The notes under the pieces were generated by a model, which had not been told where the DNA came from, did no database searches, and was given only the letters and a program-made list of their open reading frames with translations. Positions 15,482 to 21,556 of a stretch of DNA of 33,582 nucleotides are shown piece by piece (within the stretch, counting starts at the first letter, position 1; each line of letters starts with the position of its first letter). This stretch comes from Bacteroidota bacterium (GTDB taxonomy: Bacteria > Bacteroidota > Bacteroidia > Bacteroidales > UBA7960), in the NCBI GenBank assembly GCA_018335675.1, contig JAGXRQ010000004.1, positions 1 to 33,582 of the forward strand, read 5' to 3'. The translations under genes were made by a program, and so were the position numbers.

Positions 15482-16369
15482 ATGGTTAGAAGTGCAATAA
15501 GAATTACTTTAATATTTTTAATAGGGCTTTTTGTTTTCACTGCATGTATTCATTATAGAAAGACTACAGACAGATTTTATCAGGATTATCCTGAAATGCG
15601 CTCAATTGACTTTGAGTATAAAGACAGAAACCTTAGTTATATCAGTATTAATCGCAACGATAGTTTTCCTACTCTTTTTTTTCTTCACGGTGCTCCTAGT
15701 AGTTTGAATGTTTTTAATGTTTATTATAGAGATGAAAACCTTGCTCAGTGGGCAAATATTATTAGTGCCGACCGCCCTGGATATGGGTTTTCCAACCCTG
15801 GAAGAGCTGAAAGATCCATAAAGAAGCAGGCTGAAAAAATGTGGAAAATCCTTGAAAATGAAGATTATCCCAGACCATTATATATTATTGGAGCCTCCTA
15901 TGGTGGTTCTGTTGCAGCACGTATGGCTATGATGCATCCTGATAAGGTTGATGGATTGTTTTTTATTTCAGCATCTTTGGCTCCAGGACTTGAAACAACT
16001 TATCCTATTAGTTATATTGTTCGTTTCCCCCCTTTTCGCTGGCTGTTACCATCTATGATAACTGTGGCGAATGATGAAAAACTTTCACATTTTGATGCTC
16101 TGAGTGAAATGTTGCCATATTGGGATAGAATTACAGCTCCGGTAATCTTTATTCAAGGACAGGAAGATGACTTAATCTTTCCTGAGAATGTTGATTTTGC
16201 TAAAAAACAACTTGTGAATGTTCCATACGTTGAAACTCACATGATTGAAGGCGAAGGACATTTTTTGCAGTTAAAGTATAAAGACTTTATACTTGAAAGA
16301 CTTAGAAATCTAATTGAAATGACTCAAATTGAAGAAAATCAGGAAGCAATAGATATTTCAATTAATTAA
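15482..16369 (+). CDS. alpha/beta-hydrolase lipoprotein
   Basis: A 295-residue alpha/beta-hydrolase fold protein anchored as a lipoprotein (lipobox VFTAC, Cys22). The oxyanion strand is FFLHGAPSS (67-75). The nucleophile elbow is GASYGG with Ser139. The acid is in GQEDDLIF (Asp229 or 230) and the base in EGEGHFLQ (His260). The triad is complete, so an active esterase, lipase or peptidase-like enzyme on the periplasmic side of a membrane is expected; the substrate is unknown. Its end overlaps the stop of the converging GNAT gene by four bases (16366-16369). Confidence 0.87.
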   Translation: MVRSAIRITLIFLIGLFVFTACIHYRKTTDRFYQDYPEMRSIDFEYKDRNLSYISINRNDSFPTLFFLHGAPSSLNVFNVYYRDENLAQWANIISADRPGYGFSNPGRAERSIKKQAEKMWKILENEDYPRPLYIIGASYGGSVAARMAMMHPDKVDGLFFISASLAPGLETTYPISYIVRFPPFRWLLPSMITVANDEKLSHFDALSEMLPYWDRITAPVIFIQGQEDDLIFPENVDFAKKQLVNVPYVETHMIEGEGHFLQLKYKDFILERLRNLIEMTQIEENQEAIDISIN

Positions 16370-16854
16370 AACTTCTTTACAAAAACCAGCTTATCATCAT
16401 CCTTTTCATAAAAGTCTTCATAAACGTATTTTAATGAATATCCGGTTTTAATATAAAAGTCTTGTGTTGGCTTGTATAACGGCTTTGAAGATGTTTCTAT
16501 ATAAATTGCTTTTCCACCCTTTTCTTTAACAATCTCTTCGGTTTTTTGAAGCAGTAACTTTCCCAAACCTTTTTTTTGAAATGATTTACCTGTAACAATC
16601 CAATATAAGTCATAACTAATTAACGAACAAGGGATTAGTCCAAAACAAACATATGCTGCAACTTCTCCATTTATTTCAGCAAAAATGAATTCATATCCGC
16701 TTTCTGTAACAAGTTTTATCCTTTCTTCAACAATTTCAACAGCAACCCTAACTTCATCATCGCGGAAAAAACCGGTTGAAACAACTAATTCTTCAACAGC
16801 TTTAATATCAGAATGTACTACATCTGTTCGCAAAGAAATACTTTCATTCATCAT
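16366..16854 (-). CDS. GNAT-family N-acetyltransferase, end of the kamA operon
   Basis: ATG 16854 was chosen because it overlaps the upstream ATP-grasp stop as ATGA, the usual sign of translational coupling; the frame also opens from a TTG at 16863. The product has 162 residues. The acetyl-CoA pyrophosphate loop is QKKGLGKLLLQK, preceded by YDLYWIVTGKSF. The C-terminal part has FYIKTGYSLKYVYEDFY, usual for the family. It is too short for the known beta-lysine acetyltransferase AblB (about 270 residues). As the last of four co-directional genes with kamA, it may acetylate a beta-lysine-derived product; this is inference. Confidence 0.88.
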   Translation of the reverse strand: MMNESISLRTDVVHSDIKAVEELVVSTGFFRDDEVRVAVEIVEERIKLVTESGYEFIFAEINGEVAAYVCFGLIPCSLISYDLYWIVTGKSFQKKGLGKLLLQKTEEIVKEKGGKAIYIETSSKPLYKPTQDFYIKTGYSLKYVYEDFYEKDDDKLVFVKKF

Positions 16855-17819
16855 TTTATGCAATCTTTTATAACAAAATCAATAATATCTTCAAAAGCAA
16901 AGCCGGCTTTCATAGCAGCGGCATAGAATCCGGCATCCGCCGATAAGCATGGGTTTGCATTAGCTTCCAGCACGTATATGTTGCCGTTTTTATCAAGGCG
17001 GTAATCCACTCTTGCATAACCCCTTAGGTTAAAAACTTCCCAGCATTGAGCAGTTATTGCTTCGAGCTTTTTTATCAGAGCATTGTCTTTAGCCGAAAAC
17101 TCAAAAGTTCTCTGGGTATTCTTATATTCAAAAGAATCTTCCTTCCATTTAGCCTGATATCCGATAATTGTAGGTTTATCCTGAGGAAAATTAACGAAAA
17201 GAATCTCTGCCGGAGGCAATACAATTGGCTTTTTCTTGCCGGCAAAAACGGAAATGTTAAATTCTCTGCCTTCAATAAATTCCTCTACAAAAAAATTGTT
17301 CCCGTAGCGAGTTCTGTAATTCTCCAGTTTTTGAACATCATTTCCCCAAAAAACACTATTATCATCAATACCCACAGAAGCATCTTCATAAATTGGCTTA
17401 GCGATATACTTTTTATCATGGATTAAGTCCTTGGAAGAAGGAGCAATATGCCAATCCGGTGTAAGTATGCCATGAAACCTGCAAAACTGCTTTGCCAGAG
17501 GTTTGTTTGTTGTAATAATCATTGTTTCAGCACCTGAGCCTGTAAATGGAATTTTCAGGCTTTGCAGTAGAGCAGGAGCGAAGTGTATAAGTTCAGCTTT
17601 TCCGTCAACGCTTTCCACAAGGTTGAAAACGTAATCGGCTTTAGATTCAATAATTTGCTGTTTTGTTTTTTCGAGATTAAAGCTAAAAAAGGCTCTCTCA
17701 GTTTTAAATCCTAATTTCAGCAAGGCTTCTTCAACAACCTGAGCTTGGTCAAGTACATCCTGTTCGTCGGGTGTAGGTGCTTCAGATAATTGATTTATAA
17801 GGATTAAAGCCTTTTTCAT
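16851..17819 (-). CDS. D-Ala-D-Ala-ligase-like ATP-grasp enzyme 2
   Basis: A 322-residue ATP-grasp ligase related to Ddl. The N-terminal domain has ADYVFNLVESVDGKAELIHF and IPFTGSGAETMIITTNKPLA. The nucleotide-binding part has KYIAKPIYEDASVGID and FFVEEFIEGREFNISVFAG. The metal-binding end has YARVDYRLDKNGNIYVLEANANP. These enzymes join a carboxylate, activated as acyl phosphate, to an amine. A housekeeping Ddl role is unlikely: two divergent copies sit together beside kamA, and the Ddl-typical H-G-x-x-G-E-D segment is replaced by VESVDGKAE. It lies 2 bases after the first ATP-grasp gene and overlaps the GNAT gene. Confidence 0.88.
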   Translation of the reverse strand: MKKALILINQLSEAPTPDEQDVLDQAQVVEEALLKLGFKTERAFFSFNLEKTKQQIIESKADYVFNLVESVDGKAELIHFAPALLQSLKIPFTGSGAETMIITTNKPLAKQFCRFHGILTPDWHIAPSSKDLIHDKKYIAKPIYEDASVGIDDNSVFWGNDVQKLENYRTRYGNNFFVEEFIEGREFNISVFAGKKKPIVLPPAEILFVNFPQDKPTIIGYQAKWKEDSFEYKNTQRTFEFSAKDNALIKKLEAITAQCWEVFNLRGYARVDYRLDKNGNIYVLEANANPCLSADAGFYAAAMKAGFAFEDIIDFVIKDCIK

Positions 17820-17821
17820 AA

Positions 17822-18805
17822 TTAATTGCTTTTCAGTTTTTTAATTGCCGAATCCATAATCATTGAAAGAAGCTCTTTATAGCTTATGCCATTTAAGCGA
17901 GATAGGATAGGCAAATCTGAATGTATTGGATTCAATCCTGCCAGCGGATTCACTTCGATGAAGTTAGGCAAGCCGTTATCGTTGCATCTAATGTCGATTC
18001 TTCCTCCGTCTTCACAACCCAATGCTTTCCATGCTGCAAGAGCAAGATTCTCAGATTGTTTTACAATATCTTCCTTAACATTCTTATATTCAACAAGTTT
18101 CTCATACTCAGATTTGTTTGTATATGAGTAAACATTTTTCTCAGCATCCTCATTAAGAATAATTTCCATAGAGCCAACTACTTTAGCATTTTCTCCTGTT
18201 CCAACAATGCCAACGGTAAATTCTCTTCCGCTAAGGAATTTCTCAACTAAAACAGCTTGGCCAAACCTTACAAGTAGATCATTGCAAACATTATATAGTT
18301 GGTCATATGTGTTGATTACTGAGCGGCCGTCTATCCCTTTTCCCGTGCCCTCTCCAAGAGGTTTGGCAAATAGAGGTAATGGGATTTTTACGTTTTTAGA
18401 ATCTTCAGGTTTGTTGACAACTGCGAAATCGGGCGTAGCTAACCCAAAGTCGCGTATCACTCTTTTAGTCATAGCCTTATCAAGCGTAAGCGATAGCACC
18501 AGAGGGTTTGAAAAAACATAAGGAATGTTGTATGCATCCAATAAAGCCGGAACTTGAGCTTCGCGGCCAATGCCATACATTCCTTCGCAAATATTAAAAA
18601 CTATATCCCATTTTTTTCCTTCAACTAATGAAACAGCAAGTTGTTTGATATTGCCTATTCTTTCGGTTTTATATCCTAATTCTTCCAGAGTTGATTCAAT
18701 TCCTTCAATAGTATCTTCCTTGTCGAATTCTGCTGTTTCTTCTTCAGAAAAGCCCATTTTTAGATACTCGGATTTTAGGTCGTATGTAAGGCCTACTTTT
18801 ATCAT
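17822..18805 (-). CDS. D-Ala-D-Ala-ligase-like ATP-grasp enzyme 1
   Basis: A 327-residue ATP-grasp ligase. The N-terminal signature is VGLTYDLKSEYLKMGFSEEE, with WDIVFNICEGMYGIGREAQV in the Ddl-like region and LSLTLDKAMTKRVIRDFGLA before the ATP fold. The lysine-bearing strand is LPLFAKPLGEGTGKGID. The second strand is AVLVEKFLSGREFTVGIVG, and the metal site is GRIDIRCNDNGLPNFIEVNP. I recall close relatives annotated as D-alanine-D-alanine ligase in unrelated phyla, but their substrate is not known to me. It probably ligates an amino acid, possibly beta-lysine from the adjacent KamA, to a second amino acid or carboxylate. Confidence 0.88.
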   Translation of the reverse strand: MIKVGLTYDLKSEYLKMGFSEEETAEFDKEDTIEGIESTLEELGYKTERIGNIKQLAVSLVEGKKWDIVFNICEGMYGIGREAQVPALLDAYNIPYVFSNPLVLSLTLDKAMTKRVIRDFGLATPDFAVVNKPEDSKNVKIPLPLFAKPLGEGTGKGIDGRSVINTYDQLYNVCNDLLVRFGQAVLVEKFLSGREFTVGIVGTGENAKVVGSMEIILNEDAEKNVYSYTNKSEYEKLVEYKNVKEDIVKQSENLALAAWKALGCEDGGRIDIRCNDNGLPNFIEVNPLAGLNPIHSDLPILSRLNGISYKELLSMIMDSAIKKLKSN

Positions 18806-18851
18806 AATGTTTTTTTTCGTGAGATAGATTAATTAAAAGCATTGTTTTTAA

Positions 18852-18905
18852 TCATCCTGAGCGAAGTGAAGGTTCTAAAAAGATACTTCACCTCGTTCAG
18901 TATGA
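18852..18905. repeat. imperfect palindromic repeat (25-bp arms)
   Basis: The left arm 18852-18876 begins TCATCCTGAGCGAAGTGAAG. The right arm 18881-18905 is its imperfect complement (CTTCACCTCGTTCAGTATGA), with an AAAA loop. Arms match at 20 of 25 positions. It resembles a very common bacterial intergenic palindrome with a TGAGCGAAGTGAAG core (recollection, not searched). It lies between kamA and the first ATP-grasp gene, so it would be transcribed within the operon and could form a hairpin. Confidence 0.85.
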
Positions 18906-18940
18906 CATATTTCCAAAAAAATACTTGGGAAAAAGCTTTA

Positions 18941-20176
18941 TCAATCCGGATAAACGTACTCGTTTCCTTCAAAATTTCTCAAAACTAATCCGTTGTCGTT
19001 TCTTCCAATAACATATTCAGGAAGAAGAGGTATTTTGCCTCCTCCACCAGGTGCGTCTATCACATAGTGAGGAACGGCATACCCTGATGTAAAGCCTCTC
19101 AGGCCTTGAATTATTTCAAGTCCTTTTTCTACCGGAGTCCGGAAATGTCCTGACCCTGGTATTGGATCGCACTGATAAATGTAATAAGGCCTTACGCGAA
19201 CTTTAAGCAGTTCGTGGAAAAGCTTTTTAAAAGTGGGGACATCATCATTAACGTCTTTTAGCAGAACAGTCTGACTTCCCATTGGAATTCCTGCATCGGC
19301 CAGCATATTGCAAGCTTTTTTTACCTCAGGAGTAATCTCGTCAGGGTGAGTAAAATGAATGCTCATATAGAGCGGATGATATTTCTTTAGGATTCTTAAT
19401 AGTGCCGGAGTAATTCTTTGAGGCAATACTGCCGGTACTTTTGTTCCAATTCTGATTATCTCAACGTGTGGAATAGCCCTAAGTTGAGATAGTAAAAATT
19501 CGATGTGACAATCGGGAAGTGTAAGTGGGTCTCCTCCTGATAAAATAACATCTCGGATTTCGGTGTGGTTCTTTATGTAGTTTATTGCTTGCAGCCAGTC
19601 GTTTCGTTTTATAATGTGGTTTTTGTCTTTTGCAACCATGTGAGATCTGGTGCAATATCTGCAATAGGCACTGCAAAAGTCTGTAACTAGAAACAATAAT
19701 CTGTCGGGATACCTGTGAACCAGGCATTTAGCAACACTGTCGTGAGTTTCACAAAGTGGGTCTTCAGCTTCACCTTTAGACATAATTAACTCGTCCATTA
19801 CTGGAACAACGGTTTTTCTAAGAGGGTGATCCGGGTTAAATTTACTTAAAAGACTGGCGTAATAAGGTGTAATCCTTATTGGCAAATTTGTATTTTGGCC
19901 TGCAACAGCAAGTTCATCCTGAGAAAGGTGAAGGAAGGTTGATAAGTCTTTTATTGATTTAAAACTGTTGCGAAGTTGCCAATGCCAATTATTCCAGTCA
20001 GCTTGTGAGGTGCCGGGGAAGCGATTTGTAATGAATGCCTGCGTAACCTGATTTGGAGGGCAAGGTTGTTGCAGATTTACCTCAGCTTGTACTATTCCAC
20101 CATATGGCAGTGGAGGTTCCTGGTCGTCAGCCTCACCTGAAGCAGACGCCCAAACATTCTTTTTTAAGGCTTTCAT
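18941..20176 (-). CDS. kamA: lysine 2,3-aminomutase (KamA-family radical SAM/PLP enzyme)
   Basis: A 411-residue radical SAM enzyme that interconverts L-alpha-lysine and L-beta-lysine using a [4Fe-4S] cluster, SAM and PLP. The cluster motif is CSAYCRYC (Cys168, 172, 175), the SAM-binding segment is SGGD (213-216), and the PLP lysine is Lys381 in DAPGGGGK. Asp337 (YQCD) and Asp374 (VIDAP) match the two aspartates that bind the lysine side-chain amine in the clostridial enzyme; glutamate 2,3-aminomutases replace them, so lysine is the likely substrate. Unusual points are an N-terminal extension of about 57 residues before ADWNNWHWQLRN and loss of the C-terminal zinc-cysteine segment. First gene of a KamA/ATP-grasp/ATP-grasp/GNAT operon. 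Confidence 0.93.
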   Translation of the reverse strand: MKALKKNVWASASGEADDQEPPLPYGGIVQAEVNLQQPCPPNQVTQAFITNRFPGTSQADWNNWHWQLRNSFKSIKDLSTFLHLSQDELAVAGQNTNLPIRITPYYASLLSKFNPDHPLRKTVVPVMDELIMSKGEAEDPLCETHDSVAKCLVHRYPDRLLFLVTDFCSAYCRYCTRSHMVAKDKNHIIKRNDWLQAINYIKNHTEIRDVILSGGDPLTLPDCHIEFLLSQLRAIPHVEIIRIGTKVPAVLPQRITPALLRILKKYHPLYMSIHFTHPDEITPEVKKACNMLADAGIPMGSQTVLLKDVNDDVPTFKKLFHELLKVRVRPYYIYQCDPIPGSGHFRTPVEKGLEIIQGLRGFTSGYAVPHYVIDAPGGGGKIPLLPEYVIGRNDNGLVLRNFEGNEYVYPD

Positions 20177-20569: not shown

Positions 20570-21556
20570 CTATTGAACCCATTCTGATAGCAAACTTTTT
20601 ACAAAAGAATTGTTCCCAATTCCTTCTGAAAAGAAATGTGTCGCTCTCCCTTCTTGATCGTAAAAGGCGAAATGCAACTTGCTTGACTTTGTATCAACAA
20701 GAAAAATGGCAGTGGAATTGTACCATCCAATTTTTTTATCTTCTATTTTTATTGGGTTTTTAACTCTTAAAATAGTTTCATCAATTATTTCAATATTGTG
20801 ATCTTGTAATAACCAGAAATATGAAGAGTCAAAATAATCATCTCTTGAAAAGAGTTTTTTAAGCCTTGCCTGAACATTCTCATCTTCTATGAAGAGAGAA
20901 GAAAATTTACCGGCATAATTTATAGTGTATGAAAGATCTCCGGTGCCTATATATTTTGGCCAGTGCTTAAGCTCTTCGGGGTTTTCAGCAGCATAATATG
21001 CCAAATAAGCATCGTAATTAAAATGTTCATTGCCTTCTTCAATGTCTTGGCCGGGAAGAGATTCGGCTCTAGATGCAAAATTTTCATTATCCAATAAAGG
21101 CACTATATAATCATTGTAAAAATATTTTGCTTCATTGAATGCGGAAATAGACGCATCATTTACTTCAACATCAATAATTTCTCCTGAAAAGGTGTTTGTT
21201 TTTATTATATGAATCAATTTGTCTTTTTCAACATAATAAGTTATTTTTTCATTAATTTCAGTAAGCAATGCTTCAATAAGAAAAACGGAATCATCTTTTA
21301 TATAATAGCCTTTCTTCCATGCTTCTCCTTTTGCTTCAACAAAAAAAGCTTTATCATCATAATAAACATCAGCTTGCCAATCTTCCTGAAAAATATTGTA
21401 AGATTTGGAAATAGCAGCTATTACATCTAATTCTAACTTCAATTTATTTAATTCATCAACGACAATTGATACATTTTTTTGATTAGAGTTACACGATGAT
21501 ATTAATAATAAAAAGAAGTACACCGAAATGAATTTTACAGATATAAGTGTTTTCAT
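20570..21556 (-). CDS. hypothetical lipoprotein
   Basis: A 328-residue protein with signal sequence and lipobox LISSC (Cys22). The mature part begins with a helical stretch (VVDELNKLKLELDVIAAISK) and continues with alternating strands (WQADVYYDDKAFFVEAKGEA, ITYYVEKDKLIHIIKTNTF). It ends with STAIFLVDTKSSKLHFAFYD and FVKSLLSEWVQ. No family motif is recognised. It has its own -7 box and stands apart from the kamA operon, with a 393-base gap to kamA. Function unknown; a periplasmic or surface lipoprotein. Confidence 0.72.
   Translation of the reverse strand: MKTLISVKFISVYFFLLLISSCNSNQKNVSIVVDELNKLKLELDVIAAISKSYNIFQEDWQADVYYDDKAFFVEAKGEAWKKGYYIKDDSVFLIEALLTEINEKITYYVEKDKLIHIIKTNTFSGEIIDVEVNDASISAFNEAKYFYNDYIVPLLDNENFASRAESLPGQDIEEGNEHFNYDAYLAYYAAENPEELKHWPKYIGTGDLSYTINYAGKFSSLFIEDENVQARLKKLFSRDDYFDSSYFWLLQDHNIEIIDETILRVKNPIKIEDKKIGWYNSTAIFLVDTKSSKLHFAFYDQEGRATHFFSEGIGNNSFVKSLLSEWVQ

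Follow-up and report, generated by a model that had tools for sequence, protein, structure and literature searches.

A recurrent operon of a KamA-type aminomutase, two ATP-grasp ligases and an acetyltransferase: a candidate pathway to an acetylated beta-lysine peptide

The window analyzed here is the whole 33,582-nucleotide contig JAGXRQ010000004.1 of a Bacteroidota bacterium (Bacteroidales; UBA7960; assembly GCA_018335675.1). It contains four co-directional genes, encoding a lysine 2,3-aminomutase-type radical S-adenosylmethionine (SAM) enzyme (KamA), two ATP-grasp ligases (LigA and LigB) resembling D-alanine–D-alanine ligase (Ddl), and an acetyltransferase of the GNAT family. This four-gene neighborhood is not a matter of chance; it is a recurrent pathway rather than an oddity of one genome. 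On balance, the operon is read as an intracellular pathway to an N-acetylated beta-lysine peptide made through two ATP-driven bonds, perhaps a compatible solute. Its precedents are the AblA/AblB osmolyte system and the negamycin cluster. As the preliminary description of this DNA had suspected, neither a description of the cassette nor an identical characterized operon was found in the open-access literature, subscription papers lying outside the search.

Recurrence and coupling of the four genes

LigA was found at 52% identity or more in 10 of 58 genomes of relatives; other matches, at about 25%, were mostly separate housekeeping Ddl enzymes. The ten loci have the order kamA-(deacetylase)-ligA-ligB-GNAT as far as their contigs extend (layout 1), with the exception of L037, where GNAT is missing after ligB. 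Seven of the ten contain the optional fifth gene, which a contig end cuts short in two.

A scan of a genome collection with a LigA alignment yielded at least 569 relatives; the top 80 were retained, 78 of them bearing 'MAG' in their titles. These loci were picked on LigA similarity with their neighbors ignored, partners were counted within 6 kb by profile annotation, and three apparently duplicate records already among the ten relatives (L049/G056, L074/G033 and L078/G031). With contig ends included, KamA was found at 74 of the 80 loci, LigB at 71, GNAT at 58 and the deacetylase at 16. At the 53 loci with full flanks (the LigA start preceded by 1.8 kb or more of sequence and followed by 4.5 kb or more), KamA was present in 49, LigB in 46, GNAT in 44 and all four in 42. 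Co-occurrence of the four genes in other genomes, on which the preliminary description had staked its proposal, is thus borne out, and a second gene order adds to it.

LigA occurs in about 11 phyla according to record titles and tree labels, although the assignment of individual bins may be wrong: Bacteroidota, Thermodesulfobacteriota, Pseudomonadota, Acidobacteriota, Aminicenantota, Caldifarciminota, Planctomycetota, Spirochaetota, Fidelibacterota, Ignavibacteriota and Bacillota. A Myxococcota label is doubtful, as it derives from 'Deltaproteobacteria' titles. The full set was seen in the first five of these phyla and in Planctomycetota (L112). The smallest recurring unit is KamA plus LigA (L069, L076, L086, L102, L111 and L123). 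In L111 and L123, near-identical Spirochaetales bins, phosphotransbutyrylase- and butyrate-kinase-like genes follow the pair by eye; the butyrate-kinase-like genes were considered as partners and taken as chance neighbors. All 548 plasmid records fell below 60% identity, the matches listed lying at 26–31%.

The second gene order was found within the phylum. Among 198 genomes, LigA-family matches (E < 1e-60) were present in 34 and KamA in 63; KamA accompanied 33 of the 34 compared with 30 of the 164 others (Fisher p = 6e-19, uncorrected for relatedness). KamA lies on the same strand within 5 kb of LigA in 28 of the 34, namely in the window's own genome and in 27 in which it follows LigA by 1.5–2.1 kb. 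All ten of those 27 that were read (L125–L134) have the order ligA-ligB-GNAT-kamA (layout 2), making up 10 of the 13 LigA regions read, so that the GNAT gene is last in layout 1 and third in layout 2. In one genome, G105, LigA and LigB sit at the edge of a contig. A gene of about 725 codons upstream of layout 2 was rejected as a partner, the two sequences read looking like RecG by eye.

The genes are also tightly coupled. Median gaps within the cassette, estimated from the first start codon of each frame, are 3, −4 and −4 bases, with 3 for kamA-ligA (71 pairs). Single open frames join LigA to LigB in L077 and L042 (the latter at a contig end), LigB to GNAT in L092, and deacetylase to GNAT in L066, L089 and L093; fused frames seen in single cases could stem from assembly error. 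Suspected LigA–LigB fusions in L053, L054 and L080 were not borne out by open-frame analysis. Pairwise distance matrices of the four proteins are correlated (r = 0.56–0.75, 45 loci; none of 1000 permutations reached the observed value for any pair), a correlation to which shared ancestry contributes and which co-transfer alone could yield. A set of chance neighbors, or a shared mobile block with no common function, would suit the patchy presence among relatives. Nevertheless, two gene orders, several single-frame fusions and the correlated divergence stand against it, and it is the least credible of the explanations weighed here.

Family placement and predicted substrate pockets

KamA aligned to the lysine 2,3-aminomutase of C. 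subterminale (2a5h) with E = 2e-126. The alignment stops at residue 363 of 416, from which the C-terminal part of KamA is taken to be short. The protein exceeded the cut-off of TIGR00238 and reached no equivalog cut-off, scoring 468.2 bits against AblA (TIGR03820, cut-off 525.4) and 251 bits against EpmB (TIGR03821, cut-off 369). The KamA of L139, a genome of the phylum in which LigA does not adjoin it, scored 789.7 bits against TIGR03820. Equivalents of C125, C129, C132, R134, D293, D330 and K337 are aligned in 61 of 61 KamA rows, the window included. We take the three cysteines to be the cluster ligands and D293 to bind lysine, and assume roles for R134, D330 and K337 as well. The alignment supports a lysine-type active site.

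A third variant departs from this pattern. It consists of a LigA-like gene and a KamA with Gln at D293 (L140, L141 and ten of 27 further KamA loci), and neither LigB nor GNAT was detected in it, save one 19-bit GNAT-profile match in L141. In all, 40 of the 63 KamA loci have a LigA-family gene no more than about 2 kb away (the 28 above, L140, L141 and ten further), and 17 of the 27 further loci, two of them on short contigs, matched neither LigA nor the cassette GNAT profile. Gln for Asp293 occurs with an 'LDTP.GKVP' motif in a KamA group of 18 loci (among L140, L141 and L146–L172), 12 of which adjoin a LigA from a separate branch. From its sequence this group is possibly an aminomutase of different substrate.

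The closest solved relative of the cassette GNAT is 2r7h (E = 2e-30), named by its depositors 'Putative D-alanine N-acetyltransferase of GNAT family'; the only open-access paper found to contain that code apparently concerns another protein. Neither the GNAT nor any other protein of the genome matched the AblB model TIGR03827, although the model did give matches in 5 of the 14 genomes used as controls, 3 of them above its cut-off. No EpmA exceeded the cut-off in the genome. The best match (246 against 287 bits) is a 577-residue frame and, given this length, is probably lysyl-tRNA synthetase. The preliminary description's statements that AblB is absent and that no gene for modification of elongation factor P (EF-P) is nearby agree with these searches, and the family models likewise uphold a dedicated operon distinct from AblA/AblB and from EF-P beta-lysylation by EpmA/EpmB.

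These results bear on the possibility that the cassette is a variant AblA/AblB system, in which KamA and GNAT would make plain N-epsilon-acetyl-beta-lysine and the ligases would act separately (storage dipeptide, salvage). AblA/AblB likewise combines a lysine 2,3-aminomutase-type enzyme with an acetyltransferase, and the lysine-type residues of KamA are kept. Passages of PMC9337991 describe beta-lysine as the precursor of the osmolyte acetyl-beta-lysine and place ablA under Na+ and c-di-AMP riboswitches in some cases; passages of PMC3543383, on Pelobacter, give similar background. Here, however, AblB was not found, KamA is shorter at its C-terminus and below the AblA cut-off, and two ATP-grasp ligases and an optional deacetylase are added. 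Moreover, KamA–LigA pairs exist without GNAT (the smallest-unit loci and 12 variant-3 loci), the cassette GNAT profile is present in 0 of 17 KamA loci without LigA, and LigB and GNAT share one frame in L092. A variant AblA/AblB system is accordingly considered unlikely, though it is the strongest of the alternatives.

LigA and LigB resemble Ddl in predicted fold and ATP-grasp core. Their AlphaFold models (pLDDT 94.4 and 94.3) have Ddl first among the nearest solved folds in Foldseek (best E about 1e-24), all 50 entries listed per model being Ddl or D-Ala-D-Lac ligases. The catalytic Lys, Glu, Arg-Asp and Asn of the ATP-grasp core are kept in both alignments. They differ from Ddl in falling under its family cut-off of 243 (best LigA 152.8 bits, best LigB 113 bits), in forming separate clades and in having their first-substrate motifs replaced. 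Among the 25 matches listed for each, of 37 for LigA and 28 for LigB in all, both are below the cut-off of every family.

A 70-row tree joined the LigA proteins of both layouts and of variant 3 in a single clade (99/86) and gathered LigB from the two layouts in a second one (100/97); eight rows of housekeeping Ddl stood apart from both. The Ddl rows came from relatives only, the own-genome Ddl and those of other phyla being left out. The expectation of the preliminary description that the pair would not group with Ddl thus held for the eight sampled. Row L019 carries a Ddl label, is LigB, and was kept; L043 and L044 have long branches and are placed unsurely. In L044, the first half of a single frame of 633 residues (617-2518) looks methyltransferase-like by eye, and its second half resembles the ATP-grasp protein LigB.

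A cell-wall or cross-bridge building-block pathway, also raised in the preliminary description, would match the Ddl-type fold of the two ligases. Two observations speak against it: the ligases lie outside the sampled Ddl in the tree, and the 40 largest clusters of flanking genes (BLAST clusters from the flanks of the 80 loci, short of an exhaustive search by family) showed no evident wall gene. Walls of the diaminopimelate type, presumably found in the phyla of most carriers, also count against it. A role in the wall is very improbable.

The pockets were read in the light of the roles assumed for the Ddl substrate-binding residues. The histidine of the Ddl 'HG' motif is replaced by Glu, invariant in 42 LigA and 39 LigB rows (E74 of LigA and E69 of LigB in the window), and LigA has an acidic stretch in place of the N-terminal Ddl motif. 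These changes suggest a cationic first substrate such as beta-lysine. In the second-substrate loop, LigA has an invariant Gly and a consensus Ser, suggesting an acceptor with an alpha-carboxylate, while LigB keeps neither.

The deacetylase gene (about 590 residues, acetylpolyamine-amidohydrolase type) sits either in the kamA-ligA interval or behind ligB. Its product has a histone-deacetylase domain (E = 1.5e-71 in L041), acetylpolyamine amidohydrolases as nearest solved relatives, and a weak GNAT match at the N-terminus in three of five full-length proteins scanned. A GHH pair, a D-x-D/E-Y/F-H-x-GNG metal site and EGGY were present in nine of nine examined and a G-x-DTAKGDP pattern in seven. 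The window operon is without this gene, and a search of its own genome, run with no positive control, matched none.

Local context of the operon

The window is one of 150 contigs of a 3.36 Mb genome estimated as 98% complete. As the preliminary description had stated, all four genes are on one strand; kamA and ligA are 135 bases apart, ligA and ligB 2 bases, and the ligB TGA (16853-16851) and GNAT ATG (16854-16852) overlap as ATGA. The open-reading-frame listing gives an alternative GNAT start, TTG at 16863 instead of ATG at 16854. The end of the GNAT gene overlaps that of a convergent hydrolase gene by 4 bases.

Table 1. Features of the operon in the window
Feature	Position	Strand	Description
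kamA	18941-20176	minus	Lysine 2,3-aminomutase-type radical SAM enzyme, 411 aa, C-terminus short
ligA	17822-18805	minus	Ddl-like ATP-grasp ligase, 327 aa, Pfam Dala_Dala_lig_C
ligB	16851-17819	minus	Second, divergent Ddl-like ATP-grasp ligase, 322 aa, Pfam Dala_Dala_lig_C
GNAT gene	16366-16854	minus	Acetyltransferase, ATG start; nearest solved structure 2r7h
Imperfect palindrome	18856-18900		In the kamA-ligA gap; local, outside the recurrent cassette

The palindrome reported between kamA and ligA was located as well (folding z-score −4.7). A repeat search with default settings over 18700-19100 gave no inverted repeat, probably because the arms are imperfect. It has one full copy in the genome, and its half-site, with up to three mismatches, occurs at two places, the second inside kamA; a dispersed repeat was thus rejected. 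A conserved attenuator was also rejected and the palindrome set apart from the recurrent cassette, as the kamA-ligA gap is at most 30 bases in 57 of the 71 pairs. A scan for sigma-70 promoters and terminators gave no clear excess over shuffled sequences.

An IS200-like Y1 transposase gene (PF01797; 22422-22877) is separated by about 2.2 kb from kamA, on its upstream side, and by 3.5 kb from the palindrome. Nearer to kamA, at 20570-21556, is a lipoprotein-like open reading frame without a Pfam or NCBIfam match and not among the annotated neighbors of other cassettes. Toward the contig end, 28682-33412 encodes a 1576-residue TPR protein with a partial CHAT match at its end (positions 2-156 of 289), the frame stopping 170 bases short of the end of the contig.

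Proposed pathway and its meaning

Gene content and order, recurrence, fused frames, residues and predicted folds are the observations from which we infer substrates, bond order, acceptors, product and role. The operon would specify a cytoplasmic pathway complete in itself. KamA would convert L-lysine to beta-lysine. LigA would activate a carboxyl group as an acyl phosphate and join beta-lysine to an amino acid; the recurrence of KamA and LigA as the smallest unit indicates that LigA probably acts first, directly on the KamA product. LigB would form a second amide bond, and GNAT would acetylate the remaining amine, giving an N-acetylated di- or tripeptide containing beta-lysine. In some lineages the deacetylase may remove the acetyl group for turnover or deprotection, so that the two enzymes would cap and uncap the amine. 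The acetylated di- or tripeptide envisaged in the preliminary description is consistent with the gene set, and its identity is put forward as a proposal.

As a precedent that combines beta-lysine with an ATP-grasp gene, the negamycin cluster (among the KinJ-family clusters) comes nearest; for it, passages of the preprint PMC12154649 describe beta-lysine formation colocalized in the producer and an ATP-grasp protein. The cassette might likewise make a small secreted, negamycin-like peptide through ATP-grasp coupling of beta-lysine, and ABC-transporter-like genes do adjoin it in a few loci. No exporter, resistance or tailoring family was consistently recurrent among the largest flanking clusters, however, and the cassette is compact and nearly constant across several phyla, occurring bare in many bacteria. 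The hydrazine-forming (heme enzyme), methylating (N-methyltransferase) and hydroxylating genes of negamycin were not noted among those clusters either, though no search was aimed at them. A secreted product is thus a rather improbable alternative, behind the AblA/AblB variant.

Another parallel to the proposed acetylated peptide is N-acetylglutaminylglutamine amide, an acetylated dipeptide solute formed through ATP-grasp and GNAT activities. Its pathway differs in having no aminomutase and in using an asparagine-synthetase-like enzyme, which was not noted among the largest flanking clusters here, where it was not specifically searched for.

Several points weigh against the proposed peptide pathway. 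The pocket argument draws on alignment and on assumed roles of Ddl residues, and LigA is patchy among relatives (10 of 58). Eleven of the 53 full-flank loci are incomplete (L067, L069, L076, L078, L085, L086, L095, L100, L111, L115 and L123): L095 and L100 have LigA alone, L115 has no KamA within 6 kb, L067 and L085 are without GNAT, and in L078 kamA would fall past the contig end. KamA lies elsewhere in 5 of the 34 LigA genomes of the phylum, and the three read (L135, L137 and L142) have no LigB or GNAT beside LigA. The ABC-transporter-like genes adjoin few cassettes (e.g. L059, L060) and are on the opposite strand. Riboswitch control was rejected, as the window and 17 of the 80 loci, scanned with Rfam, yielded tRNAs only. 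According to record titles, the habitats of carriers include digesters, rumen and fresh as well as saline waters, a poor match for a purely salt-linked solute.

The likeliest role would be that of a protective or storage solute kept inside the cell and related to N-epsilon-acetyl-beta-lysine. Since no riboswitch was found in the sequences scanned and the sources seem to be fresh as well as saline, this solute role is held with low confidence, as a minority expectation. It is also tentatively conceivable that the cassette represents an undescribed metabolite class, acetyl-capped beta-amino-acid peptides made by paired aminomutase and ATP-grasp modules and serving as protective beta-peptides across phyla. 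The change of Asp293 to Gln in the variant-3 KamA, with its own LigA branch, suggests that the module could be turned to different beta-amino acids with its logic unchanged.

The operon is a four- to five-gene biosynthetic cassette spread over several phyla, mostly in metagenome-assembled bacteria, for which no assigned product was found. If the proposal is correct, these bacteria would make an overlooked intracellular peptide by means of ATP-grasp enzymes able to use a beta-amino acid, and annotations of the ligase genes as D-alanine–D-alanine ligases would be corrected.

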